A stretch of 64,000 nucleotides of DNA from Sistotremastrum niveocremeum HHB9708 (taxonomy: Eukaryota > Basidiomycota > Agaricomycetes > Sistotremastrales > Sistotremastraceae): positions 1,203,532-1,267,531 of the forward strand of contig KV419396.1 of NCBI GenBank assembly GCA_001630475.1, read 5' to 3'. The position numbers were made by a program, and so were the translations under genes. This document shows positions 17,025 to 58,271 of this stretch, piece by piece; position 1 is the stretch's first letter; each line of letters begins with the position of its first letter. The notes beneath the pieces were generated by a model that saw only the letters and a list, made by a program, of their open reading frames with translations, was not told where the DNA came from and searched no databases.

Positions 17025-18606
17025 TCAATCATCGTCGCTCTCCTCGCTCGATGAATAATCGTCTTCTTCGCCATCTATTTCCAATCAGACAAGATCCGGA
17101 GAAGGGGTGATATGCACTTACTTCCAGCATACTGATTAAGTGGTACAGGACCTGTCCGATTCCCATTTTGATAATGCATTGTTGGAGGTGCGTTCGAGTC
17201 GGCATCATCCTCATCCCTTAGGTGTTCGTCAAGCTCAAGAGCGAATGCCTCATCGTCAACTTCAACGGCCTCCTCCTCTTCCTCCTCTGCAGGGAATACA
17301 GTAGACACGGGTATCATGTCATCATCGGAATCTGAGTGCGCCACTGAGCCGTCCGAAGAACCTTCGTAGATCGATTGGAAGGTTCGTGATGGTGCAGAGG
17401 AAGGGGGAAGCAGGATATCGGAGGGCTTTGGAGGCGCACTAGATGGTAGTGCAAGTGGCGGTGGTTCACGTTTAGCAGCTAGCGGTGTACTTCTTGAAGA
17501 CGATGCGGCGGCGGCAGATGCTTGTGTTGTTCGCCCTTTCTTCGCGGGCTTTGGCGCAGGCTGGCTGCTAAAGCTGAATTCTTCCTGATCCAGTTCAGCG
17601 GCCAGCTCCTCAGCAGCCTTCTTCGCAGCGGAGGCAGCTTTTCCTTTACCCTTCCCTTTGCCTTTGCCTTTTGCCTCCGCTTTCGGTTTAGCCTTCGCCT
17701 TGGGTGTCGGTTTGGCGCCGTTCGCTTTCGTAGTCACTGCCTTTCGGGCAGGAGGGGCCGGTATCGGTTGGCTGGCCGCGACAGCGCTCAAAGGTATCTC
17801 TTCCTCTTCCTCCTCTTCTTCATACCGTGGCTTCTGTTCGAGCTCGGGATCGATTTCCCCTTCTGCATCCTCTAAGCCGAAAGCCGCGCTGAGCTCTGCG
17901 TCGAGATCTATATCAATCTTCGGCGGAGTCACTGAGCGAATATGAGCATGGGATAGCCAGAGTAGAAGTCGAACGCTTACCAGAGGGCGGCGTAGGTTTC
18001 GTTGATTTACTTGGAGGAACGCGACCCTCGTAATTCCAAGTGACCGACGAATCAAGTTTCTCCAATGTAAATGTCTGGGATAATAGATGGATTTAGTTGT
18101 GGCATTGCGAGAATAGAATATTGTGTGACGAACCCCATTCTCCTCGTCGTAGATCAACACACATTCCCAGTCTTTCGCAGGCTGAACAGTGCCCGAGAAT
18201 GCGTGACTTTCGTCACTCTAGTTGATTGTTAGTATAGATGGATATGTTGGGGCAGTTCCGGTAGATACCTGAGTGGACGGTCGCTCGAGTCTGAAACTCG
18301 TTCCGGCCTCCTTGCTGCTGGACTTGGCCTCGATAGACCCCTGTTTGGACTCATCGACCGAGTCTGGCTTGAAGGTATCTGACGAAGAAGAGACATTCAG
18401 ATAGACTGCATGAGAGCCAGATAATGCATGTATATATCACATCGAAAGGAGTAAAAGTCGTTGTTTGGGAATTTATTTTTGGGCTGTTTAGGAGGAGGAG
18501 CACCGCTGCGAGCCTTGAGCGCACGAACAAGAGAAGGACCAAGATCAACTGGATGTCGACCGCCAGCGGACGGCAGCCATTCATTGGGCGACATTGAAGA
18601 CAACAT
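17025..18606 (-). CDS. EAF-family transcription elongation factor
   Basis: A 437-residue nuclear protein from exons 18606-18441, 18378-18269, 18217-18134, 18074-17981, 17931-17122 and 17074-17025. The first roughly 150 residues form an EAF N-terminal domain (FYSFRYTFKPDSVDE, FSGTVQPAKDWECVLIYDEE, FTLEKLDSSVTWNYEG), known from ELL-associated factors that stimulate RNA polymerase II elongation. The rest is disordered: an acidic run of Glu, a Lys/Ala/Gly/Pro tract, Ser-rich parts and an acidic tail ending EESDDD. A second ATG lies 12 nt downstream, at 18594, so the true start could be MSPNEWLPS. Confidence 0.88.
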
Positions 18607-22961: not shown

Positions 22962-25900
22962 TTAGACCCAGGTCTCAGCTTTGATGGCACCATTCTTCTG
23001 GTCTTCGACATACTGTCCGATAGCTAGAATATCTTGACCTGCTCGTCGTAGGTAGCCAGCCAGGACTCCACGGTCGGCATGGGGGAATACATCTACCAAC
23101 TTGGCCAATTGACGATTGAACTCATCGTCCGCCAATGGAGGCGAGTTATAAGCACGAGCTGGAAGAGAGCTCATGTGCGTTGGGCTGCTCGAAAGAGGAT
23201 GGTGTGAGTCAGGAGAGGAAAGATCAGACGTTCGACTTGGCCCGAGTACGCTGCCTGCGCGTTGTGCCCTGGTGGCGGGACTCCGAGGTCCACCCGGGAG
23301 CCTTGGAGGCCCTAATTTAATCGGTCGAGGTTGTGGTGATGAGATAGATAATTTTCCTAGAGGAACTTTTGTGTTCGAGGGAGATTGCGGGAAAGCCCCA
23401 AATCGCTCTTTCTTCATACTGGCTTTTCTGCCGATAGTAGAGAAGAATCCTGAGCTAAGAGGTTTAAGCGAGGTTGATGGCGACATAGACCCAAATGTCT
23501 GACTCCGTTGTATGGATCCACGATAACCTGGACCCTGGGCAAGAGAAGGATAAGGAAGGGAGTTAGCTGGACTGATGGGGGACATGAATTCGTCCGAGCT
23601 AGTGTACGGAATCTCTACCGCAACGGATGCCTCAGGTCTGGTAGGGAATGTCATGTCGGAGGCCATGGTGCCATGCGAGACGTTGCGTGGCTGAGGACCT
23701 CCGAAATCCAAGGGGATAGACTGCGCGGGCGACAGGGTGGATGATACCGCAGACATAGGGACTGAAGTAGGATAGTCGCCCCGTCTTCCGTGACCTGATA
23801 TAGGTTTGAGCGAGTTCTCCGAGAATTCAATAATTCACATACCCCTAGCTTTCATCCACAGCATCCACTCCTCCAAACCACACTCACAATATGACAATTC
23901 TTTGATTTTTCGTGCATACGCGTTAGCACGGTCTGCAGAACTGCGCATTGCCAGAACGTCATCAAAGCGCAAAGCATCAGGCCACGCAGCATGGAACTTG
24001 AATGACGATGGAGGCAACGCGATAGGTGGCTCGCTTGGCGAATTGCCCCTGGACTTTGAATGACTATGAAGCGATGCCCTCGACGGAGATAGAAGAGACG
24101 CTGTTCTAGAGATGCGCTGCATCGGCGAAGTGCCTCTAATGCCATTACCAGACGGCGAATGAGACAATGACCGAGTAAGAGAGTTCGGGGAACGCTCAAG
24201 CCCCGATCCCGCTGATACTCTTCGATATTTCACTTCGTCTGTTGATTGCGTGTCACTCTCCATACTAACCCAACTGTTGGCACGCTGCAGTTCAGCAGCT
24301 GAACGACGTTCCACCAGGATCTTCGATGATCGAGGTGGTTCAAGGACCGTCGGAGGAGGAACGTCTTCCGATCTGACGAGCCCAATATCGTCAATGGCTT
24401 CCCCCACCGCAGCGACAAGATCATCGAATGTTGCCATATCTCTTGGCTTCCTCTCGTGGACAACATCGAGGTCTGATTCAGGGGTAGGAGGAAGTTCTAC
24501 GTGTCGCATCATTGACGGAGAAGAATGTAGAACACTGGATCCATGGGTGTCCGCTTTAGGGTGCGTAGATGATTCTCCCTCACGGACATGATCTGATCTC
24601 ACGATTCGAGATCTAGTTGGTGTCTGATCTTCATCGACTACTAAAGTAGAAGACTCGATTGGCGGAGTGAGTGGTGTACTGTCTTCACGTGTTGCCTCTA
24701 TCACCGTTTCCAATTTTACATCTGAGGAAGAACGACTATCAAGAAGTAGTGGCTCCGGTGAAGGAGCAACAGGCGACGGAGAGGGTTGATGATGGACTAC
24801 TTGAGCAGGCTCGATCTTTGAATTGACCGAGTTGGCATCCTGGACAGGGCGAGACACGGAAGATGAACCCTTCACCGGTGATTGTTCACGCGACGAGACA
24901 CTGCTTTGGGTGGGGCGCTTGGTCGGAGAGGTCTCTCGGCCAATTTTGTCTGGAGGTGACGTTCGCCGAGGCGGACGAGGTGGAGGAGCAGTTTTAGCTG
25001 AGGGGATAATGTGTCGTGGAGGAGGAGGGAGTGGGCCTGCGGTAGAGTGCACACCAGTCACATAGTGGAGGTAGGCTGTATCTGATGGCGAGGGCAAGTG
25101 AACTGGAGACGATGAGGTGGTCTTAATCTCTGGTGTATTCTGGTTCGGTTGCGTGGGAGTGTTCCAGTCAAAGTGGCGTGGAGGAATAGCCAACACGACT
25201 GGCCCTGCAACGGACTGTTTGATATCTTTCGCTTCTCCAATCGCCGGTGTCGTATGGGCAGATTGCAACACTTTCCACGTCGTGTCTAGATGTCCGGAGG
25301 AAGGTGCATTTCCCCCGAGCTCTACTGCAGGCGAAGAAGGTTCAGATAAGGAAGGGTTGAGATAGGGTGATGGGGAGCGATCTTTGGGACGTTGAAAAAT
25401 GGGAGAAGTGGCAGATTCAGGGAAGGTGGCTGGTGCATTGTCGTCCTCCTGAGGACGTGAAGGTGGACGCGAAGGGATCCGATCAGGAGTGTTTGGAGGG
25501 TTGGTGCCAACTATTCCCACATCCCTAGGTGCCTTTTTGATGGATGGCATCTTGCGAATAGTATTGCTCTGCATCTCCGAGTACGATCTGTGATGGCCAC
25601 TCGACGCGCTCTGTGAGCCATCTAGAGAAGCCTCCATATGCCTGGCCATTGATTTGCTTCGTGTTGGAGGGGCAGAAGCAGGAGGAGATATATCAGTATA
25701 ATGCTGGGGAGCAGCATCAGGCGGGGCAACCAAAGCTAAGTGGCCGACCATCCCTCGACGTTCATGTAGATTCTCCTTGGGATTCTGGGTGGTTACAACA
25801 GAGGGGTTCGTTGTAGTGACCATGGGTGAAGGATCAAGTTCAACGATGGCAAGCCTGCGCTTGTCGGTGCCCCCAGCAGACCTAGTACTGACTCGTCTAT

Positions 25901-26343
25901 GTACCCCCGTCGCGTCAAGGGAGTTATGAGCAGAGCGTTGCATCGCTTTACTGGCTGTGCCACTTCGCGCGGGTGCACCACTCTGATCTCCTCTTCTACT
26001 ATCCTGTTTGTCGTGCCCTCTTGAGTAGGACGTCTCTGAATAAGAGGAGCCGCTCGAGAGTTCAGTCTCAGACTGAACAGGCGTGGTTGATGCGCTGGGC
26101 GAGGGGGCAGGGTAGGGACGAACGTAGACCTTGCCTGCGTCTTCAGACTGATAGTAGTCCAAAAGATTGTCTGTCAGTTGACGCTCTAACGGAGGGCGCT
26201 CTAACAAGATTTGGGCCTTGATGAGCCGGATTATGTTCAAAATGGAAGAAGAGATGCCGACCTGGTGAATCAGAATATGTAGAAGAAACAACGCTGTCGC
26301 GCGGGGGGTGGTAGGACACCGACGAATGGATTAGATTAGCCAT
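22962..26343 (-). CDS. Large disordered protein with CUE-like C-terminus
   Basis: A 1,091-residue protein from exons 26343-26320, 26261-23843 and 23794-22962. The first roughly 55 residues are helical (SSSILNIIRLIKAQILLE, then LTDNLLDYYQ). Most of the protein is Ser/Pro/Thr-rich and low in structure. Near residue 800 a compact stretch appears (FKFHAAWPDALRFDDVLA, then LSYCECGLEEWMLWMKARG). The last 55 residues (FNRQLAKLVDVFPHAD, then GYLRRAGQDILAIGQYVED) resemble a CUE/UBA three-helix ubiquitin-binding fold. I recognise no named orthologue. The first exon is 24 nt and is the least certain part; reading from an internal Met is possible. Confidence 0.75.
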
Positions 26344-36946: not shown

Positions 36947-39900
36947 ATGTCTGGAAAGCGAGATCTGTCAGGCTACAACTATGGAGCCATATCTTCCTTG
37001 GTTCTGACAGCAGACCGATCCGCTTTGCCTCGTCGTGACAGGGAACCTGATGGTGCACCAACTTCCTTGGTGGGCCGAATCGACCCCAAGCAGATGGGAG
37101 CTCGGGTCTACAGGGAGGCTCCTAAGGATCTAGAGAAGAAGAAGAAGAAAGCAGCCGATACCAGCGATAAACCTGCTGCGAAAAAGGCCACGGTTGGCTT
37201 TGGTTATACCGACATCATCGAAGCCACTCAGGACGTTGAGGGATTAACCTACCGACCTCGAACGACGGAGACTCGAGAAGTGTACGAGATCATGCTTTCG
37301 AATGTCCATCAAGCCTTAGGAGATCAGGCGCAGGATATCGTTCGCAGTGCCACTGACGCTGTCCTCGAAACTTTGAAAACAGAAGACGTCAAGGACTTCG
37401 ACAAAAAGAAGGACCTCGAGGACATCATGGGCCCCATCTCCAACGAGACCTTCGCTACACTCATCAACTTGGCCAAGAAAATCACTGACTATGGTGCCGA
37501 GGACGAGACAATGGCCGACCCCGACACGGAGCGAAAGGATGCGGAGATTGACGATGAAACTGGTGTTGCCGTTGTGTTTGACGACGATGACCAAGAGGAG
37601 GATGAAGAAGAGGGTTACGAAATTCGAGAAGAGTCAGAAGATGAGGGTGGTGAAGAACTGGAGGGCGAGGAGGCTCAGAAAGACGAAGAAGACGACGCGG
37701 ACGAACTCGTCTTCGGAGGAGGTCAAAGCACTACCCGCAAAGAAAAATCTCAAGGCGGTTCAAAACTAAATCTGCATGAGATTGACGGGTTCTTCATCCA
37801 AAGACGCATCGCAGAGTTCTATCCTGATGCCGAAACTGCGACCGCGAAGGCAACGGAGGCCATGGACATCCTCAGCTCCGAGTCATCGACACGAGACGCC
37901 GAGAACTCTCTCATGGATCTCTTCGACTGGTCTCATCACGAACTCGTGACCTTGTTCTTGCGGAATCGAGATGCTATTGTCTGGTGCACCAAGCTCATCA
38001 GAAGCGACGCCGACGAAAGATACAACGTCGAAGTCGCAATGAGAGAGAAGGGCGTCGGCTGGATTCTCAAGGAGCTCGCCGGTGATCGAAAAGCGAAGAA
38101 TGGCGACGGCGATGCTATGGACGTTGATCAAAAGCCCCAAAAGACCGTGCCGACGACTGCCACTATCACCGCGGGGTCGACTGTCCAACCTCGCAAGACA
38201 GTCGACCTTGAAGGCATGGCGTTCGCACAGGGAGGACACCTTATGTCGAACAAGAAGTGCAAGCTTCCCGAAGGGTCCTTCAAGCGATCAAAGAAGGGCT
38301 ACGAGGAAATTCATATCCCTCTCCCGAAAACCAAGCCTTTAGGACCTGGAGAAAAGGTTTCCTTAATGGAACTACCTGAATGGACACGAGTAGCCTTTGG
38401 ACCTGGCGTTAAAGACCTCAATCGCATACAGAGCAAGACTTATCCTGTTGCATTCGGAACTGATGAGCCTATCCTTCTTTGTGCACCAACAGGTGCTGGC
38501 AAAGTATGTATATTTCTTCCACACCATATCGCCGGTATTGATCGAATTTTCAGACTAATGTCGCTTTGCTCACCATGTTGAACGAATTAAACAAAGTTCG
38601 AGACGAGGCCACTGGCACTTTCGATCTCGATGCGTTCAAGATGGTTTATATTGCTCCCATGAAAGCTCTTGTACAAGAGATGGTTGGCAGCTTTGGAAAA
38701 CGCTTGGCACCCTACGGCGTCAAAGTTGGCGAACTGACGGGAGATAATCAGCTTACCAAACAGCAGATTGCTGAAACCCAACTCATCTTCACCACCCCTG
38801 AAAAATGGGATGTTATCACTCGTAAGAGCACTGATACCTCCTACACCAACCTTGTGCGACTCGTCATCATCGACGAAATCCACTTGCTGCACGATGAGCG
38901 TGGTCCTGTCTTGGAGAGCATTATTGCTCGCACAGTGAGAAGAATGGAGCAGACGCAAGAATACGTCCGTCTAGTGGGCTTGTCTGCGACTCTTCCGAAT
39001 TATCAGGACGTCGCTAAATTCTTGCGCGTCGACGAAAGCAAGGGACTCTTCTACTTCGACGCTTCCTATCGACCATGTATGTTGCAACAGCAATTCATTG
39101 GCGTCACAGAGAAGAAGGCGATCAAGAGATATCAGGTGATGAACGAGGTTTGCTACGAGAAAGTCCTTGATCAAGCAGGAAAGAGCCAGACACTCGTGTT
39201 CGTGCATTCACGGAAGGAAACCGCGAAAACGGCAAAATTCATACGTGACATGGCTATCGAGAAGGGCACTATCACTCAGTTTGTCAAGCCTGACGGCGCC
39301 ACAAGGGAGATCCTCGACGAAGAAGTCAATAAAGGAGTCGGGGATGCAAACCTTCGAGATTTGCTTCCTTTCGGGTTCGCCATCCACCACGCCGGCATGA
39401 CCCGAGAGGACCGTGCACTTGTGGAGGACCTTTTCGGTGACGGTCATATCCAGGTTCTTGTTTGCACCGCTACCCTAGCATGGGGTGTTAATCTGCCTGC
39501 GCACGCCGTAATCATCAAAGGGACTCAAATTTACAATCCAGAGAAGGGACGTTGGGTGGAGCTTTCGTCTCAAGACGTGCTGCAGATGCTGGGACGTGCC
39601 GGACGACCTCAGCACGACACATTCGGAGAAGGCACCATCATAACCAACCACTCTGAACTACAGTACTACCTCAGTCTAATGAATCAACAATTGCCCATCG
39701 AATCCCAACTGGTCTCAAAACTTGCCGACAACCTTAATGCGGAGATTGTGCTCGGTACCATACGTAATCGCGATGAAGCCATCCAGTGGCTAGGATATAC
39801 CTACCTGTACGTGTTTCTTTTTTCTTCCGTGGATACTATGTTCAAATTCTTCGCAGGTACGTTCGCATGTTGCGTACACCCAGTCTGTATCAAGTTGGGG

Positions 39901-42900
39901 TTGACTACCAAGACGACGATCCGCTGCTGATCCAAAAACGCGCGGACATTATCCATTCGGCTGCCGTCCTGCTCGAAAAGTGTAATCTTATCAAGTATGA
40001 GCGACAGTCAGGGAAGTTGCAATCTCTGGAGCTCGGTCGAATCGCTTCACATTACTATGTCACGTACAACTCAATGGCTACATACAATCAGTATTTGAAG
40101 CCAACGATGGGAATGCTGGAGCTCCTGCGCGTGTTCGCTTTGTCGAACGAGTTTAAACTCATTCCAGTATGCTTTCCCTTCATCTCTTCGCGGCCATCAC
40201 TGAATATGTCACAGGTCCGACAAGAAGAGAAGCTTGAGTTAGGGAAGCTTCTGGAGCGCGTACCTATCCCGGTCAAGGAAAGTGTCGATGAACCAGCGGC
40301 CAAGATCAATGTCTTATTACAGGCATTCATATCATCTCTGAAGCTGGAAGGCTTTGCCTTAGTTGCGGATATGGTGTTCGTGCAGCAATCCGCAGGTCGT
40401 ATCCTGCGTGCTATGTTCGAGATCTGCTTGAAACGCGGTTGGGCTGTTCCTACAAGGGCTGCACTTGACTTGTGCAAGATGGTTGATAAAAAGATGTGGA
40501 ACTCAATGACTCCCTTGCGGCAATTCAAGGGCATCCCGGGAGACGTCGTCCGCAAGGCGGAATCCAAGCAGTTCCCATGGTACCGCTATTTCGACCTCGA
40601 GCCGCCGGAAATCGGCGAACTCATTGGGGTTCAGAACGCTGGACGATTGGTTCATCGACTCGTTCACAGCTTCCCGAAGCTCCATCTTCAAGCGCAGGTC
40701 CAACCCATCACCCGTTCTCTTATGCGCATCGACTTGTCCATAACACCCGACTTCAGGTGGGATGAAAAGATTCATGGGAACACAGAGAACTTCTGGATCA
40801 TTGTGGAGGATGTCGATGGAGAGATCATACTTTTCCACGATCAGTTCATCCTCCGCCAGCGGTACTCGCAAGATGAACACACTGTCACTCTCACCGTTCC
40901 AATGACTGAGCCTATACCTCCTAATTACTTCGTGTCTCTGATCTCTGATCGCTGGCTGCAATCGGAAGTCAGACTTCCGATCTCTTTCAAACACCTCATC
41001 TTGCCTGAAAAATTCCCCCAACCGACCCTCCTTTTGGATCTTCAACCGCTGCCAGTCACTGCACTACACAACGCCGAATTCGAGAAAATATATTCGTCGA
41101 CGATCAAAAACTTCAACAAGATCCAGACTCAAGTCTTCCAGGCTCTATACACTACAGACGACAGTATATTCGTCGGTGCTCCTACGGGAAGCGGAAAGAC
41201 TATCTGTGCGGAATTTGCTCTCCTACGCCTTTGGAGTCAGAAAGATCATCGCCGCGCGGTTTGCATAGAACCATTCCAAGAGATGGTAGACATGCGCGTG
41301 GACGAATGGAGACAGAAATTCAGCAATGTTCAAGGCGGCAAAGAAATCGTCAGCTTAACAGGCGAAACTAGTGCTGACCTTCGTCTTTTGGAAAAAGGAG
41401 ATGTGATTGTTTGTACTCCAACTCAGGTGCGTCTTTTGTGATCCAAGGTTTTCCTAGTAATTAATATTTTCTGTAGTGGGACGTCCTATCAAGGCGTTGG
41501 AAGCAACGGAAGAATGTTCAGACCGTTGGTCTGCTGATCGCTGACGAGGTTCAGCTCGTTGGCGGCGCCGTTGGTCCCGTTTATGAAGTTATTATCTCTC
41601 GAACGCGATATGTGTCTGCCCAAACTGAGAACAAGACCCGAATTGTTGCTTGCGGCGTGTCTTTGGCCAACGCAAGAGATCTTGGTGAATGGATTGGAGC
41701 ACCGTCTCATAGTATCTTCAATTTCCCTCCCAGGTACGTATTATGTTTGTGCAATGAAAAATCAGCTAACGCTCGTGTACGTAGCGCTCGACCATTAGAC
41801 ATGGACATCCATTTGCAAAGCTTCAGTAATCCACATTTCCCGTCCTTGATGATCGCCATGTCGAAGCCAGCATACCTTGCGACCATCGAATACTCACCGA
41901 CAAAGCCAGTCATTATGTTCGTCCCATCTCGCAAACAATGTAGTGCTACCTCGACCGATCTCTTGATGCATTGTCTGGCCGATGGCAACGAAGATCGCTT
42001 CTTGAATATCGACCTTGCTGATCTCCAACCGCATCTCGATCACGTGACGGACAAGGCATTAGCTGATTCTCTCAAACATGGTGTCGGAATATATCACGAA
42101 GCGCTCAATCGACAGGATAAGAAGATTGTAGAGCGGCTATTCCAATCCGGGGCTATTCAGGTTCTGATTGCTTCTAAGGTTGGTTGCACAAGAAATCGTG
42201 GAAACATTTACTGATTTAATTCTTGACAGGACGTCGCCTGGAGTCTCCCTCTTGTGTGTTATATGGTCATTATCATGGGCGTGCAGTATTTCGAAGGAAA
42301 AGAGCATCGATATGTCGATTACCCAGTGACAGATCTCTTGCAAATGATGGGTCGCGCATGTCGACCTACTGAGGACGAAAAGAGTCGATGTGTCCTGATG
42401 TGTCAGCAAACGCGCAAGGACTTCTATCGCAAATTCTTAGCAGAAGGATTGCCTATCGAGTCGCATTTGCCGACGAACTTACTTCACGACTATTTCCTGG
42501 CCGAGATTGCCGTCAAGACGATCGAGAACAAACAGGATGCTATGGTACGTGTCCTCGAACCTGTCTATAGTTTTCTCACCTAACATCACCTTAGGATATC
42601 CTCACATGGACGTTCTTCTATCGTCGGATGACGCAAAATCCCAATTATTACAATCTCCACAGCGTCAATCATCAGCATTTGTCCGACCATTTGTCGGAAC
42701 TTGTGGAGAATACTCTCAATGACTTGGTCCAGTCCGATTGTATCATCATCGGTAAGAGCCTAAGTTGATGCTAGCCATACCATAACGAACTAACTTTGAC
42801 ATACAGAGGACGAGATGGATGTGTCCGTGAAGAATCTTGGCGCCATTGCGGCCTATTACAACATTTCATGTCAGTTCGTTGGATGCTTGCCAGGTGACAC

Positions 42901-43987
42901 GACTAAATGGCGTCATAGATGTTACTGTCGAGGTGTATACAATGTCCCTCAAGGAGCGTACGAAACTCAAGGGTCTCCTGGAAATCGTTTCATCCTCCGC
43001 AGAGTTTGAGGAAATCCCCATTCGTCGGCACGAAGAGCCTGTCCTGCGACGGATCTATGACCGAGTTCCGGTCAAGATCGACAAAGTCGATTTCGATGCT
43101 CCGCACTTCAAGACATTCATTCTCCTCCAGGCTCACTTCTCACGAATTCATTTACCTCCGGATTTGGCTTCTGACCTGACGCTTGTGCTCGAGAAAGTGC
43201 TTAATCTGCTTTCGGCAGCAGTGGACGTAATGTCGTCTAACGCGTGGCTGAACGCATTGGGCGCCATGGACTTATCTCAAATGTGTGTACAAGCGATGTG
43301 GGAAACAGATTCACCTCTGAAGCAAATTCCTCATTTTGAACCTGATGTGCGTGATATCCTCGTTGTTTTGCAGTCCCTGATTGACCTTTTGTATAGGTGG
43401 TACGTCGTTGCCAAACGGCGGGTGTGGAGACCGTGTATGATCTTATGGAGATGGAGGACGATCAGCGAAATGAATTGCTGCAAATGGATAACGCCCAAAT
43501 GTAAGCCTGATGGAGATAAGTAGCCTGTGCGTAATCACTAAAGTGCTTTCACAGGCGTGACATTGCGACATTTGTGAACGCGTATCCCACCCTCGAATTG
43601 TCGTTTGAGCTCGAGAAAGGGGACTACAGGGCCGGACAGCCGATTGTTTTGCATGCGGTGCTGAACAGGGACGCGGATGAAGAGGGCGAGGACGACGACC
43701 AAAGGGTGGTCGCGCCATTCTATCCCGGGAAGAAGATGGCGAATTGGTGGGTCGTTATAGGCGAACCCTCAACACGCCAATTACTGGCTATAAAGCGCGT
43801 GACCGTGAAGAAGAGTCTCACAGTCAAACTGGATTTTACACTACCGAAAGGAAGACACGATCTCAAGTTATATTTGATCTGCGACTCGTACATGGGTGCA
43901 GACCACGACTTGGCCCTTGAACCCATCGACGTGGCGGAGGGCGAGGACAGCGACAGTGACGAGAGCATGGAAGAGGACGACGAATGA
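36947..43987 (+). CDS. BRR2: U5 snRNP Ski2-like RNA helicase
   Basis: A 2,160-residue spliceosome helicase that unwinds U4/U6 snRNA. Exons are 36947-38503, 38554-39806, 39857-40166, 40215-41426, 41477-41733, 41785-42178, 42230-42544, 42595-42751, 42807-42869, 42919-43346, 43397-43500 and 43555-43987. The N-terminal region of about 500 residues includes a long acidic tract. The first helicase cassette has [10 protein letters not shown] (about residue 514), [21 protein letters not shown] and MLGRAGRPQ, followed by a Sec63 domain. The second cassette starts near residue 1362 (GAPTGSGKT) and has [17 protein letters not shown] instead of SAT, and MMGRACRP, fitting the known inactive C-terminal cassette. 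A second Sec63 domain and an acidic tail end the protein. Confidence 0.97.
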
Positions 43988-44319
43988 TTGCATTCTTGTA
44001 AACTAGCGACCCTGTATTTACTCGATATAGGAATGAGCCAATTGTGCGCAGAGGCTGTAACGTAGCGCAGACGCCCAGGCTCCGAGGCGGCTTACTCAAT
44101 CCGGCAGACGCGTCTCCGACCGATCGCGTGGGTTGACGCAGATGCGCAAAAATGACTCATGTCGGTCGATTATCTCGCTTAGTCAGCGATCCACTAAATA
44201 GCTCAGGGTTCGATTACGCACATAAGGAGTTTCGCTGGACTTTCTCTGGACATCCACCTGCAAGTGTATTCTGTGCGACCAACTGCCCTCATTCCTATTG
44301 CTGCTCTTAAAATACAGCA
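43988..44319. other. Intergenic region before the copper ATPase gene
   Basis: 332 bases holding the BRR2 3' end and the promoter of the copper ATPase. At 44179-44187 there is TTAGTCAGC, which matches a known Yap1-type oxidative-stress element of yeast, 133 bp before the ATG. One short match may be chance. Confidence 0.3.
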
Positions 44320-47300
44320 ATGCGCTTCCACTACCCCCATCCGACGGAGGCCCCCTCCCAGATGAATATATCCTCCGTATACGTCGCCAACCTCCACTGC
44401 GCGTCCTGTGTCCACACCATCCATGAAGTTCTGCAAGAGCTTACCCCACCACCCGCCTCCATCAGCGTCTCCATCGTCTCGCAATCCGTGACCATCGAGC
44501 ACAGTCCCTATCTCACTCTCAAGGCCATTCAACAGGCTTTGGAGCACGCTGGATTCGATATACCTTCTCTCGAAGACCAGTTCGGTGATCCTGGTCCTAG
44601 CTCGGGTCGAAGGCAACGTCATGTCGACCATTGTACCAAGTGTCAGGAGGAAGAGGGTCAAGATCATGGCGACCACACCGCGGAAGCCTCTGTGCCTACC
44701 ACTTCTCAGGTCATCCCATCCAAGAGCAGCCTTCCTTCTTCGCCGATGTCTTCCTCGCCAGGTTTCATCGCTTCTTATTCCATCGGAGGCATGACGTGTG
44801 CATCCTGTTCTACCACCATAACTCACCAGCTCTCTGAGATCCCGGGTCTGTCAGAGGTCAAGGTAGATCTTCTGGGCAACAGCTTGTCCCTCGTCGCCGA
44901 GTCTCAGAAGCTGGCCCAAGAGGTTGTCGAACACGTCGATGACCTTGGCTATGAGGCCAACATCGTCAACATCAACCCCATTCCTCCTCCTCAGCTCACA
45001 CATACGCCCACAAAGTATGTCGCCACGTATTCCATCGGCGGCATGACCTGTGCGTCGTGTAGCACTACGATCACCAAGCAGCTCTCGGAGATCCAAGGCT
45101 TATCAGAGGTCAAGGTCGATCTCCTGGGGAATTCCATGACCCTGGTCGCTTCATCCGAGCAGCAAGTGAAAGAGGTCATCGAGCACGTCGAAGACATCGG
45201 ATACGAGTGCTCTATCGTTGACGTAAAGCCCCAGCAGCAGGGTATGGAGAGCAAAGAGCCAGTGGAGCTTTCCAGGACAGTTAGCATTCGTATCGACGGC
45301 ATGTTCTGCCAGCACTGCCCAGAGCAAGTTATGGCAACTCTGGAGACCTTTCGCAGTAATCCTGCTTGGGACTTCCAAATCAAGAAACCCGTCGGCGGTC
45401 CATCCGATCCTATACTCACCATCTCCTACATACCACACTCCCCTGACTTCACCATCCGTTCCATATTGACCGCGCTGTCTTCCGCCTCCTCTCCCTCGGG
45501 TTCTGGTCAGCCTTTCATGGCCACCATTCATCACCCGCCTTCGTTGGAATCTCTCTCTGCAAAAATGCAAATAAAAGAGCGACAGGCGTTGTTGTGGAGG
45601 CTGATCTTCACCGTCGTCCTTGCGATCCCTACTTTCATCATCGGCATCGTCTTCACCACTCTGATCCACTCCACGAATTCCCTCCACATATACTTCAACG
45701 CGCCTCTCTCGCCTAATCATACGGGATCCGTTTCTCGTATGGTCTGGGCACTCTTCATCTTGGCCACGCCAGTCGAGTTTTACTCTGCTGGCTTGTTCCA
45801 TCGTCGATCCATCAAGGAGCTTCGCGCATTGTGGAGAAGAGGCAGCCGCACTCCCATATTGATGCGATTCATTCGGTTCGGGAGTATGAACCTGCTCATC
45901 TCCTTGGGTGTCTCGGTTGCATATTTCTCGAGCATTGCCCTCTTGGCGATAGCAGCAACGACTCCACCTTCGGAAGCAAATGAGGGAACTACGACCACGT
46001 ACTTTGATTCCGTGGTTTTCTTGACAATGTTCCTCTTGATCGGTGAGTATGCTGTCAGTTTACGATTCGACCTAGCTAATTTCTTTGGTCAGGTCGATTC
46101 CTCGAGGCTTACAGTAAGAGCCGAACTGCCGACGCTGTCAGCGCTCTGGGAAAGTTGCGCCCGAAGAGCGCCCTTTTGTTGACCCCGGGACCAAGTGACA
46201 TCCCAGCGACGAAGGAAGGTCGATACGCGCCATCCGACTCCGATCTGGAAAGTGGATCCACCAGTTCGAACGTCCTCGATGAGAAAGATATTTCTTCCTA
46301 TACCAACAGCGTCCCCGTCGATCTTCTCGAGCTCGGAGACATTATCCGCGTTCTCCCTGGATCTTCCCCTGCAGCTGACGGAGTCATCGTTTCGACATCT
46401 CATCAGCCCAACGCATTCGCGTTTGACGAAAGTTCCTTGACTGGGGAGAGTCGTCCGGCCCATAAGAAGGAAGGGGATATGGTATACGTAGGAACCATCT
46501 GCAAGGGTCGCCCTGTTGACGTTGAGATCACCAAGATTGGTGGCGAGACCATGTACGTCTTCTATCACCTTGTTTGAGCGTTTCACTGATATTTTTCAAT
46601 CTCAGGCTTGACCAAATCGTGCAGGTTGTCCGTCAAGGACAAACGAAGCGAGCTCCCATCGAGAGAGTCGCCGACCATCTGACGGCGTACTTTGTGCCAT
46701 GTGTCGTTTTCCTTTCTCTGATCACGTGGATCATCTGGCTCGTACTTGGCGAAGCCAACGCTCTCCCTGCCGGCTACTTGGACATTCCTATCGGCGGTTG
46801 GCGTAAGTGGCACTCTTCGTCGGTCAAAGTATTATGCTGATTTTCCCCCTTCCATATAGCCGTTTGGTCATTGCGTTTCGCGATTGCAGTATTTGTCGTC
46901 GCTTGTCCTTGTGGCATAGGTCTTGCTGCTCCCACCGCTCTCCTTGTGGGATCGGGACTTGCCGCAAATTTTGGAATCCTGGTGAGAGGTGGCGGTGAAG
47001 CTTTCCAAGAAGCTGCCAATATCGATGTCGTCGTCTTCGACAAGACTGGCACGCTCACTCGCGGGGATACACCCACTGTTGGAGAAGGTGATGTTGTCAT
47101 GACCGAGAACGACAGCCCTTGGAAGGAGACGACCAGTCTCGAGATGGTCTATGCATTGGAAAGTGGTAGCACTCATCCGGTTGCCACCGCTGTCACAGCC
47201 TACTGCAAAGCTCAAGGGATCTCCACGGCCGACATCGAGCCAAGCCACGTCGAAGAAGTCGCCGGAAGAGGCATCAAGGGTAGCTTCGCAGGCAAGTACA

Positions 47301-54933: not shown

Positions 54934-57900
54934 ATGGAGAGGGGGCCATCGGTTGCAAATCCTGACTCCCCAATGCCGTCTGAGCACAATCAGAGCCCTC
55001 CTCGTCACGGCATCGATACCCCCAAATACAGAGAAGAGACCTTCAGCCCGTTTTCCAACTCTGTGTCCACATCGGCCTCGGACTATCGTTCAGTGCGCTC
55101 GTCACCGAGTCCGGTTCTAGTGCCTGAGTCCTCCGAACTTCGTCGCGCCCCCTCTGACTCCTGGCAATCCAGCGATTCAGAAGTTCCCTCTTTTCGCAGT
55201 GCGTTCTCAGAAAAAGAGGCCATCAACGCTCCTCTTTCGGCCCAAAACACCATCAGCTTATCGGTGGCATCGCGCGGTCAAGCCGATGGAGAAGATACCC
55301 CTATCCCTTCATCGTTCTCAGACATCAGTGGGCCGATCTACCATGAAGAGCCTACTATTATGGGACCTTCTCTCCATAATCAGCCCAATGGGCGTCCTAC
55401 AAACGGCTCATCTCTGTCTCTATTGAGCAGAGATAAATCGTTGTTTTCCCGAGGCTCTTCATTCAATGTCTCCTCCCCATCACCTCCTGGATCCTCTATA
55501 GGATCGGAGAGTGCTCCGCCATCCAGCGTGCCTGACGCAGCCCTGTCTTTCGAAGCCCAAATCAAGGCATCTCCATTCATTAACAGCATCATGCAACGCC
55601 TTGCGAACTGCGAGTACTCATCCAGAGAGATCCAGCGTGAACTTGGCGATGTTCATCGCAAGCTCGATCTCCTCGTTCAGAGATCGCAGGGCAACAATAT
55701 GAACCAAGGCAACGGCGAGCTGGAATTCAGGAATCCATTTGCATCACCCAGCGTCATTACTCCCGGTAACTCATCGCAGAAGTTCAACGTTTCACCTTTC
55801 CAAAATGGCCCAGCCCTGCGTGGATCCACAGCTGGGGTGAATCCGGATGATATAACCCAGTTGTCTCAGCGGCTCAACACTTTGACTACGTCAGTAGGGC
55901 AGCTACTGGCTATTCAAACCCAACAGCACATCCAGAACACCAATGCGCCGCTCCAGCCACACAGGGAAAGCATCGTTAGCATACAACAACACAGGGATAG
56001 CATTGCAGGATTTAACTCGAGCATGAACACGCCTCAGGAAATAGCTCCAAACCAGCTGGTTTCTCCCCCTATCAATGCACCTGGTGTCGGCTTGGGACCA
56101 GGCTTAGGACATGGATTCCCACCACGAGACCTTAGACCTCCAGCTCCTGGAGTTCGCACTCCAAACCCTCCCATGCGTACTTGGTCTGCTGGTAGCCTCG
56201 AGCTACCTATGCGTCCTCAGGATAACATGAATAGGCCACCTGATTTTGCCAGAAAGCGAGGTTCTGTCGCGACCGGTCTCATGCGCCGAGAGTCATCTGG
56301 GGTATACCTTATTCCCTTTGTGAAATCTACAGAGATTGACACTTGATTGTCTCAGCTCATCGATAATTCTGGCGAGCAATGGAATAATGCGAACGGCAAT
56401 AACGCTAATTCCTCTCGTGATCCTGCGGGTATGGTTTCGAAGTGGGAACACTTGCCGTTAGCACCGGAGCTGCTTCGTTCTATTGCCAAGTTCGGGTGAG
56501 TAATTCGGTATCATACGGCCTTTCTATCGAATAACGCTTCTCCCATAGCGTCGGCCCTCCTAACAAGGTTCAACAACGTGCTTTGCCTTTCCTTCTTCGC
56601 GGCTCGGATATTATCGCTCAGGCTCCTCCTACTCAAGAACGGATCGCAGCTTATGTCATTCCAGCGATTCACGTCGCTTTGACATACATGAACGCTCGGC
56701 CCGCTCTACGTGGACCGATTGTGATCATGATCTCTACTACGGTTGATCAGGCCACTCAGGCTCAGCGTATGATTCGTGATCTTGGTGGTCCCATCGGCGT
56801 TCGCTCTGCACTGGGTGTTGGATCCACCAACGGCAATAACCAAATCGTCCAGGAAACTCGTCTCTTGCAACAGAATATGCCACATATTCTGTGTGGCACG
56901 CCTCAAAAACTCCATGGTCTTTTTACCACTCCCGGAGGTCTCGCTGCCTCAGAAGTCAGGTTTTTAGTTCTGGATGAGGTCGATCAGCTCATTGCCCGTA
57001 ATCTTCACGAATACGTCTTCAATATCGTCAAACTCTTACCGCCCCCTCGTTCTCGTCCTCTTGGGCCAACCTCAGGGAGTCCAGCTCCGTCTACGTCCAG
57101 CAAAGGCTCCTCGTTCAACGGCCTTGATTCCAATGGTAGTCCTGCTCTCGGTCCGTCCTTCCCAGGTCCCATCAGACGCTTCTCCACTGCGCCATCGCCC
57201 GGCCCCATAGAGCAACCGAACCCCGATATCGTCGAGAGACAGACTGCGTTATTCTCGAATACAGTTCCTCAAGACGTGCTCAACCTCGCCAATGCTATAC
57301 AGTTGCGCGAACCCATTCGCGTCCTAGTACGCCGAGATGGCAACGTCACGCACGCTGATACGACCCAGAGCTCCCGTGGCTTGCGTCAATTCTACCTCTA
57401 TCTTGCCTTCACGGCAGGCGGCAGAGCCGAGACCCTTCCAGGAACTCCAGGCGGGGGTCACGGTATCATCGGCTCCGGACGAGGCGCGACGAACGCGGAG
57501 ACTGCTCAAGCTCGTGAATGGAAATTAGACGCTCTCGCTGATCTCTTCGAGGATATTGAGGTCTCTCAAGCCATCGTCCATGTTGGAGGGCTTAACGCAC
57601 TGGACAGTGTAGTGTATAAGCTCGCCAGTAAAGGCCTTGAAGCCGTGCCTTTGGTGCGTCAGACATAATGCCTTTTATTCTCTATGCTGACTCTAATCTA
57701 GCATGGTGATATGAATGCTGGGACTAAGTTGGCGGCGTTGAACAAGTTCCGCAATTCAACATCAGGCATGATGAGACAGCCTGTGGCCAAAGTGTTGGTC
57801 GTGTATGACGTTCAAGTCAAAGCTCCGGATGTGTTCCAAGTACCTCTAGTAATCAATTATGGTGCGTTACTGTCTATTCCGAACCCTCATCGCTGTATCG

Positions 57901-58271
57901 ATCGTGTACCCTTCGCAGATCTTCCTAAAGCGGTGGAAGAATATGCTCATCGGTCAGACTCAGCTTTTATAGGCATGTACGGCAATCCTGACCGCATCCC
58001 TTCCAGTGTTGCCCCTGCCGTTTCTTCTAGTTATGCTCGTGCCGGCGTCGTTATTAACTTCGTGACCGCTACAGGCGGTGATGTCGAGATGCTCCGGTCT
58101 ATTGAATGTTTCTATAAGTGAGTCTCGGTGATCCTCTGTCTTTGAGCCGTGCTAACGATAACGACCACCTTAAGAATCAAATGTGTAAGTTCCAACTCCT
58201 ACTTTTCGAGGCTTCTTTTGACCGTCATCCCATAGCCTGAAGTTCCTATGAGTCTGCGTGACGTCCTCTGA
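54934..58271 (+). CDS. eIF4A-like protein with lost helicase motifs
   Basis: A 987-residue protein from exons 54934-56301, 56356-56495, 56549-57653, 57702-57861, 57919-57952, 58007-58117, 58175-58184 and 58236-58271. Residues 1-470 are Ser/Pro/Asn/Gln-rich and disordered, with a short helical patch (INSIMQRLANCEYSSREIQR). The remainder follows eIF4A from end to end: Q-motif side PNKVQQRALPFLLRGSDII, DEVD near residue 643, HGDMNAGTK, VINYDLPKAVEEYAHR and the ending EVPMSLRDVL. The catalytic residues are gone: motif I reads AQAPPTQER (about 525), SAT is SNT, and motif VI reads HRVAPAVSSSYAR. A Pro/Ser insertion of about 60 residues follows DEVD. It is probably an RNA- or eIF4-binding pseudo-helicase without ATPase activity. 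Confidence 0.85.

Follow-up and report, generated by a model that had tools for sequence, protein, structure and literature searches.

Among at least 31 DEAD-type loci or cassettes found in the host genome, a single one lacks the P-loop. Its gene lies at positions 54934-58271 (+) of the window, the 64,000-nt stretch of DNA analysed here and the reference for all coordinates below, and encodes a protein that combines a recognizable eIF4A-like helicase core with a long N-terminal extension. We regard it as fairly likely that this protein is a constrained pseudohelicase, nearest to the eIF4A/eIF4A3 lineage, that acts as a scaffold for binding other proteins and whose N-terminal arm is mostly disordered.

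Gene model and coding evidence

According to the gene model, the reading frame begins with an ATG at 54934 and closes with a stop codon ending at 58271, and eight exons are predicted to encode 987 amino acids without an in-frame stop, separated by seven introns of 48-57 nt that are all of the GT-AG type (7/7). An earlier note on this DNA, written from the sequence, had given the same coordinates, the same eight exons and the motif letters quoted from them, all of which proved exact in the gene model and the alignment. Codon usage singles out the coding frame as the best of six in each exon tested (6/8; exons 7 and 8 were left out). A DNA search of the host genome for a second copy or allele of the gene returned only the self-match, and viral contigs searched with an exon of the pseudohelicase and with an eIF4A alignment yielded no relatives.

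Exon 1 (54934-56301), supported by the gene model and codon usage, corresponds to the N-terminal extension (residues 1-456), which is rich in Ser, Pro, Gly and Asn and predicted to be mostly disordered. The end of the linker and the start of RecA1 (WEHLPLAPELLRSIAKFG) are aligned to exon 2 (56356-56495), the 3' intron of which matches an eIF4A intron in place and phase, and RecA1, two inserts and the first part of RecA2 are assigned to exon 3 (56549-57653) on the basis of the Pfam DEAD match, AF2 and Foldseek. Exon 4 (57702-57861), whose 5' intron is common to eIF4A, encodes HGDMN, motifs IVa and V (VYDVQVKAPD) and the beginning of motif Va (VINY); by gene model and alignment, exon 5 (57919-57952) carries DLPKAVEEYAHR and the start of motif VI. 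The remainder of motif VI (VAPAVSSSYAR, 58008-58040), with the arginine fingers replaced, is found in exon 6 (58007-58117) of the model. It is followed by exon 7 (58175-58184), whose 3' intron occupies the place and phase of an eIF4A3 intron, and by exon 8 (58236-58271), modelled with the C-terminal PEVPMSLRDVL and the stop. Exon 7 is a micro-exon of 10 nt between two short introns and was placed via the alignment to eIF4A. Introns 4 (57862-57918) and 5 (57953-58006) have lengths that are multiples of three and contain no in-frame stop, so that their retention would lengthen the protein by insertions of 19 and 18 residues, respectively.

Domains and motifs of the helicase core

Both domains of a DEAD-box core are present in the protein, with Pfam scores of 54.4 bits for DEAD (cut-off 26) and 36.5 bits for Helicase_C (cut-off 23.5); nothing else was matched in Pfam up to E = 1, and the Utp25 family was not among the hits. 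The closest solved structures are human eIF4A-I (E 5e-44) and eIF4A-III (2.9e-42), followed by yeast eIF4A (2.3e-33) and Dhh1 (8.5e-26). The earlier statement that the core aligns with eIF4A is thus supported by the domains as well as by the best solved relatives. As references we used the eIF4A and eIF4A3 genes of the host genome, which were modelled and named from their best solved relatives. The core is identical to eIF4A at 125/370 positions (34%), to eIF4A3 at 122/375 and to a DDX47-type protein (L008) at 116/364, values so near to each other that identity hardly discriminates between these candidates. Compared with eIF4A, RecA2 (59/149) is better kept than RecA1 (66/221).

The catalytic motifs are altered to different extents. 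Motif I (56622-56645) reads APPTQERI in place of AQSGTGKT in an alignment that is gap-free on both flanks; all six residues of SGTGKT are replaced and the P-loop is lost. Splicing cannot restore it, because motif I is within one exon and its flanks are gap-free. Motif Ia reads TTVDQA versus PTRELA in the reference, and motif Ic TPQK versus TPGR. Motif II (56973-56984) is aligned as DEVD, with the acids kept and A changed to V, and motif III (57255-57263) as SNT for SAT. In motif V, VYDVQVKAPD stands where the reference has TTDLLARGID, with loss of the motif V glycine, and motif Va (QVPLVINYD) is the least altered, being near intact. Motif VI, YAHRVAPAVSSSYAR where the reference has YIHRIGRGGRFGR, no longer contains HRxGRxxR and reads HRVAPAVSSSYAR, with HR kept and the arginine fingers replaced; neither an alternative acceptor at 58031 (HRYARAG) nor retention of intron 5 restores these fingers. 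With literature-based lists of ATP-site (17) and RNA-site (16) positions, 7/17 and 4/16 positions, respectively, are retained, and 3 of the 12 changed RNA-site positions are mild R to K substitutions. The earlier view that all ATPase motifs are lost consequently holds where the P-loop, arginine fingers and the majority of the RNA contacts are concerned, but is too sweeping for the residues that are kept: the three acids of motif II (D, E, D), the S and T in motif III, the glutamine of the Q motif, the motif V aspartate and the HR pair in motif VI. The motifs are not set apart statistically from the rest of the core: in columns invariant in four active relatives, 24/59 motif residues and 41/73 others are kept, a difference that is not significant (p 0.083), and in the same columns the changes within motifs are not significantly more radical than those outside (p 0.066).

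In RecA2, the stretches REWKLDALADLFED, EWKLD.L.DL, QVPLVINYDLP, INFVT and IE.FY are kept. Two low-complexity inserts, absent from the earlier note, are delimited by the alignment: one of 64 residues in RecA1 (668-731; 57042-57233), with a pLDDT below 50 at exon-3 residues 173-218, and a Gly-rich one of 35 residues between the lobes (790-824; 57408-57512), partly below 50.

A DEAD profile search of the host genome gave at least 38 matches, which were grouped by hand into the at least 31 gene loci or cassettes mentioned above. The P-loop was checked beyond the pseudohelicase in 28 loci and two Brr2 cassettes, and all 30 keep it. The pattern GxGK[ST] is matched by 26/28 loci and by Brr2 cassette 2; in L036 and Brr2 cassette 1 the P-loop is intact but split by an intron, and L045 has, by reading, the SAGKT form.

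Predicted structure

The structure was predicted by AF2 for exon 3 only (368 residues), which leaves the second half of RecA2 outside the model, from alignment A3 with 17 bacterial DEAD-box proteins; 17 of the 18 DEAD-box loci were taken in, and L033 (21% identity) was left out. The pLDDT is mostly about 90 or more across RecA1 and below 50 in much of the inserts, with a pTM of 0.60. Searched with Foldseek, this model retrieves eIF4A structures on top (3eiq_D, E 1.9e-12), with TM scores by target length of 0.78-0.80 against isolated human eIF4A DEAD domains and of about 0.4-0.5 against two-lobed eIF4A chains, the latter low values being expected because one lobe is cut short in the model. As the alignment consists of active DEAD-box proteins, the prediction is biased toward an eIF4A-like fold. 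The comparison with eIF4A structures suggested in the earlier note is favourable for RecA1, whose helicase fold appears retained in the AF2 model and in Foldseek, and retention of the fold in RecA2 is suggested by its sequence alone.

Modelled by itself from a single sequence, the N-terminal extension has a mean pLDDT of 42.8, and helices are predicted, with low confidence, only within residues 203-253 (55540-55692; helices 203-211, 214-224 and 230-253) and 304-361 (55843-56016; helices 304-337 and 341-361). Its composition and this low-confidence model give modest backing to the disorder that had been proposed for it. Relatives of the extension were found neither in the host genome nor in the PDB. 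By eye, HRxSI words are repeated (HRESIVSIQQHRDSI) and RRES occurs in exon 1, as does RRFS in the RecA1 insert, all of them possible basophilic-kinase sites.

Possible functions of the protein

To judge from the residues lost, the pseudohelicase would neither hydrolyse ATP nor clamp RNA; with its P-loop, its arginine fingers and the majority of its RNA contacts gone, it is very unlikely to act as an ATP-gated clamp on RNA. The RNA-binding decoy put forward in the earlier note is disfavoured by the RNA contacts, changed at 12/16 positions with only three of the changes being R to K. By elimination, the protein probably functions as a scaffold: its RecA lobes would now bind proteins, and the long disordered arm with its two predicted helical stretches may recruit or oligomerise partners in translation or mRNP metabolism. 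Such a combination of scaffold and disordered arm is the most economical role because the framework and the RecA2 stretches are kept, and RecA2 is the lobe that a MIF4G domain is reported to anchor in CWC22-eIF4A3.

A more specific role, rather unlikely in our opinion but the best placed of the alternatives, would be that of a mimic of eIF4A which, having no ATPase activity, occupies eIF4G or a different MIF4G protein, a competitive inhibitor tuning translation, EJC assembly or decay. It would fit the better conservation of RecA2 relative to RecA1 (59/149 versus 66/221), the lobe reported to be anchored by MIF4G in CWC22-eIF4A3, and the six MIF4G matches in the host genome. The contact residues speak on both sides. 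Of the reported MIF4G contacts of Dhh1, R55, F62, Q282 and N284 could be mapped and R355 was dropped because of a numbering misfit; at the four places the pseudohelicase has P, A, E and S and the host eIF4A P, Y, T and T. The P is thus identical to eIF4A and S for T is mild, but A replaces the aromatic residue at the F62 place and E replaces T at the Q282 place. Furthermore, the two inserts may obstruct the known interfaces.

Relation to eIF4A and eIF4A3

The pseudohelicase shares with host eIF4A two of the three modelled introns of the latter, in exact position and phase: a phase-2 intron within a Gly codon ahead of the Q motif and a phase-0 intron ahead of HGDM. By a rough hand estimate, the chance of two such matches is about 1 in 10,000. 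In addition, the last intron of the pseudohelicase coincides in place and phase with one of seven eIF4A3 introns. Clade-distinguishing residues side with the eIF4A clade against Dhh1 (37:12), L008 (41:25), a Dbp2-like protein (38:13) and a Ded1-like protein (39:16), counts that are supporting evidence only because the most conserved group is favoured; between eIF4A and eIF4A3 (10:7) they make no choice.

In the tree, the pseudohelicase is long-branched and falls outside eIF4A, eIF4A3 and Dhh1 (bootstrap 78), with eIF4A and eIF4A3 grouped at a bootstrap of 95. The AU test rejects a sister position to eIF4A or eIF4A3 (p 0.011-0.024, and 0.010-0.014 without the motif columns) and accepts a position basal to both (p 0.30; 0.22 without the motif columns). 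The SH test does not reject the sister place (p 0.07-0.08) unless the motif columns are removed (about 0.02). The term eIF4A paralogue used in the earlier note does not, in its narrow sense, agree with the tree, which places the protein outside eIF4A and eIF4A3. This outside placement may be a long-branch effect that hides a younger origin, or may reflect a truly old split. The latter would add the protein to the eIF4A/eIF4A3 clade as an old third member, which separated at or before the eIF4A-eIF4A3 divergence, shares ancestral introns with both and survives in this line of fungi as a dedicated ATP-independent pseudohelicase scaffold regulating translation or EJC-type complexes; we consider this full scenario unlikely. 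On our main reading, the lineage probably began when an eIF4A-type gene, introns included, was duplicated at the DNA level rather than retroposed.

Integrity of the locus and selection

Exon 1, if unspliced, reads on to a stop at 56346, and an ATG at 56431 immediately precedes VSKWEHLPL, which would suit two genes or isoforms, one ending at 56346 and the other comprising the core from ATG 56431. This division is quite unlikely, given that the two frames are joined by a canonical 54-nt phase-0 intron and that exon 2, which lies partly upstream of ATG 56431, scores as coding over its full length. Still less plausible is a non-canonical nucleotide or RNA binder that would use the DE.D acids, S.T and the R-to-K positions; while the retained acids of motif II (D, E, D), the S and T in motif III and three RNA-site arginines changed only to lysine are compatible with such an activity, the complete replacement of SGTGKT, the loss of the arginine fingers and of the motif V glycine, and the changes at 12/16 RNA contacts count against it.

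Neutral decay of the eIF4A coding sequence to the same identity produced a mean of 11.2 stops and a minimum of 4 (200 runs), versus none in the pseudohelicase. The hydrophobic framework was compared over 94 columns that are hydrophobic in all seven active relatives, two of which are incomplete models (the C-terminus is incomplete in the gene models of L001 and L005). The pseudohelicase is hydrophobic in 89/94 of these columns, versus 88/276 elsewhere, and the neutral simulation kept a mean of 63.7 and a maximum of 76 of them (300 runs), or a mean of 64.4 and a maximum of 75 when realigned at matched identity (100 runs). A further simulation of 40 runs went down to 30% identity, beyond the divergence seen in the gene itself (34%); at matched identity the outcome was the same. 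Substitutions are also milder than under neutrality, with a mean BLOSUM62 score of -0.03 versus -0.76 in the simulated and -0.75 in the realigned sequences. The selected eIF4A-type pseudoenzyme that the earlier note had postulated gains from the lack of stops and from 89/94 hydrophobic columns versus at most 76 under neutrality, and we infer from these sequence comparisons that selection has acted on the fold through most of the history of the pseudohelicase. A decaying pseudogene, to which the loss of catalytic motifs and the two low-complexity inserts might point, was rejected as extremely improbable in view of 987 codons without stop or frameshift, the GT-AG sites of all seven introns, the neutral simulations and the in-frame codon usage.

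Comparison with known systems and significance

The pseudohelicase resembles eIF4A and eIF4A3 (DDX2/DDX48) in its two RecA lobes, C-terminal tail, residue signature and intron positions (two of eIF4A, one of eIF4A3), and differs from them by the absence of the P-loop and arginine fingers, the change of most RNA contacts, the 456-residue extension of exon 1 and the two inserts. PriA is a DNA replication protein of a different helicase family. The Deinococcus PriA pseudohelicase (PMC4504706, as described in PMC9539457) is likewise helicase-type and reportedly shows negligible unwinding and ATP hydrolysis. Utp25 (Def), described as only the second pseudohelicase to be proposed (PMC9539457), resembles the present protein in its two DEAD-box-like lobes, in the vestigial state of its motifs and in its disordered N-terminal region. 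Utp25 is assigned a Pfam family of its own, in contrast to the pseudohelicase, which matches DEAD and Helicase_C only; an identity with Utp25 was rejected, host Utp25 matching at a separate site (C2:1152 kb). Dhh1 (DDX6) is described as a DEAD-box protein that acts in translational repression under the control of a MIF4G partner, but its residue signature (12 versus 37 for the eIF4A clade) and its aligned core, devoid of shared introns, distinguish it. A literature search of titles and abstract openings, mostly outside the subscription journals, revealed no described fungal member, the Utp25 paper being the only close one.

A constrained eIF4A-type pseudoenzyme would show that a DEAD-box core can persist purely for binding. 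If the proposal is right, this natural ATPase-free version of eIF4A could indicate which of the contacts made by eIF4A depend on the enzyme cycle, and orthologues in related fungi, should they exist, would provide a direct and testable case of catalysis loss with the fold kept.

Neighbourhood in the window

The pseudohelicase gene is flanked by an NLE-WD40 gene, which we take to be of the YTM1 type, and by a convergent VID27 gene. The window also contains a three-domain histidine-synthesis gene, which together with VID27 would be in keeping with a fungal source. Unrelated to the pseudohelicase is a helicase gene of the Brr2 type (SNRNP200) at about 36950-43990 (+), which carries both DEAD cassettes and whose ends were set by eye. 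Three open frames on the reverse strand, at 17075-18217, 22962-23834 and 23835-26330 (-), encode 380, 290 and 831 amino acids and have no Pfam match at E 0.001. An open frame at 44311-46182 (+) contains three HMA domain stretches and resembles a copper-ATPase gene.
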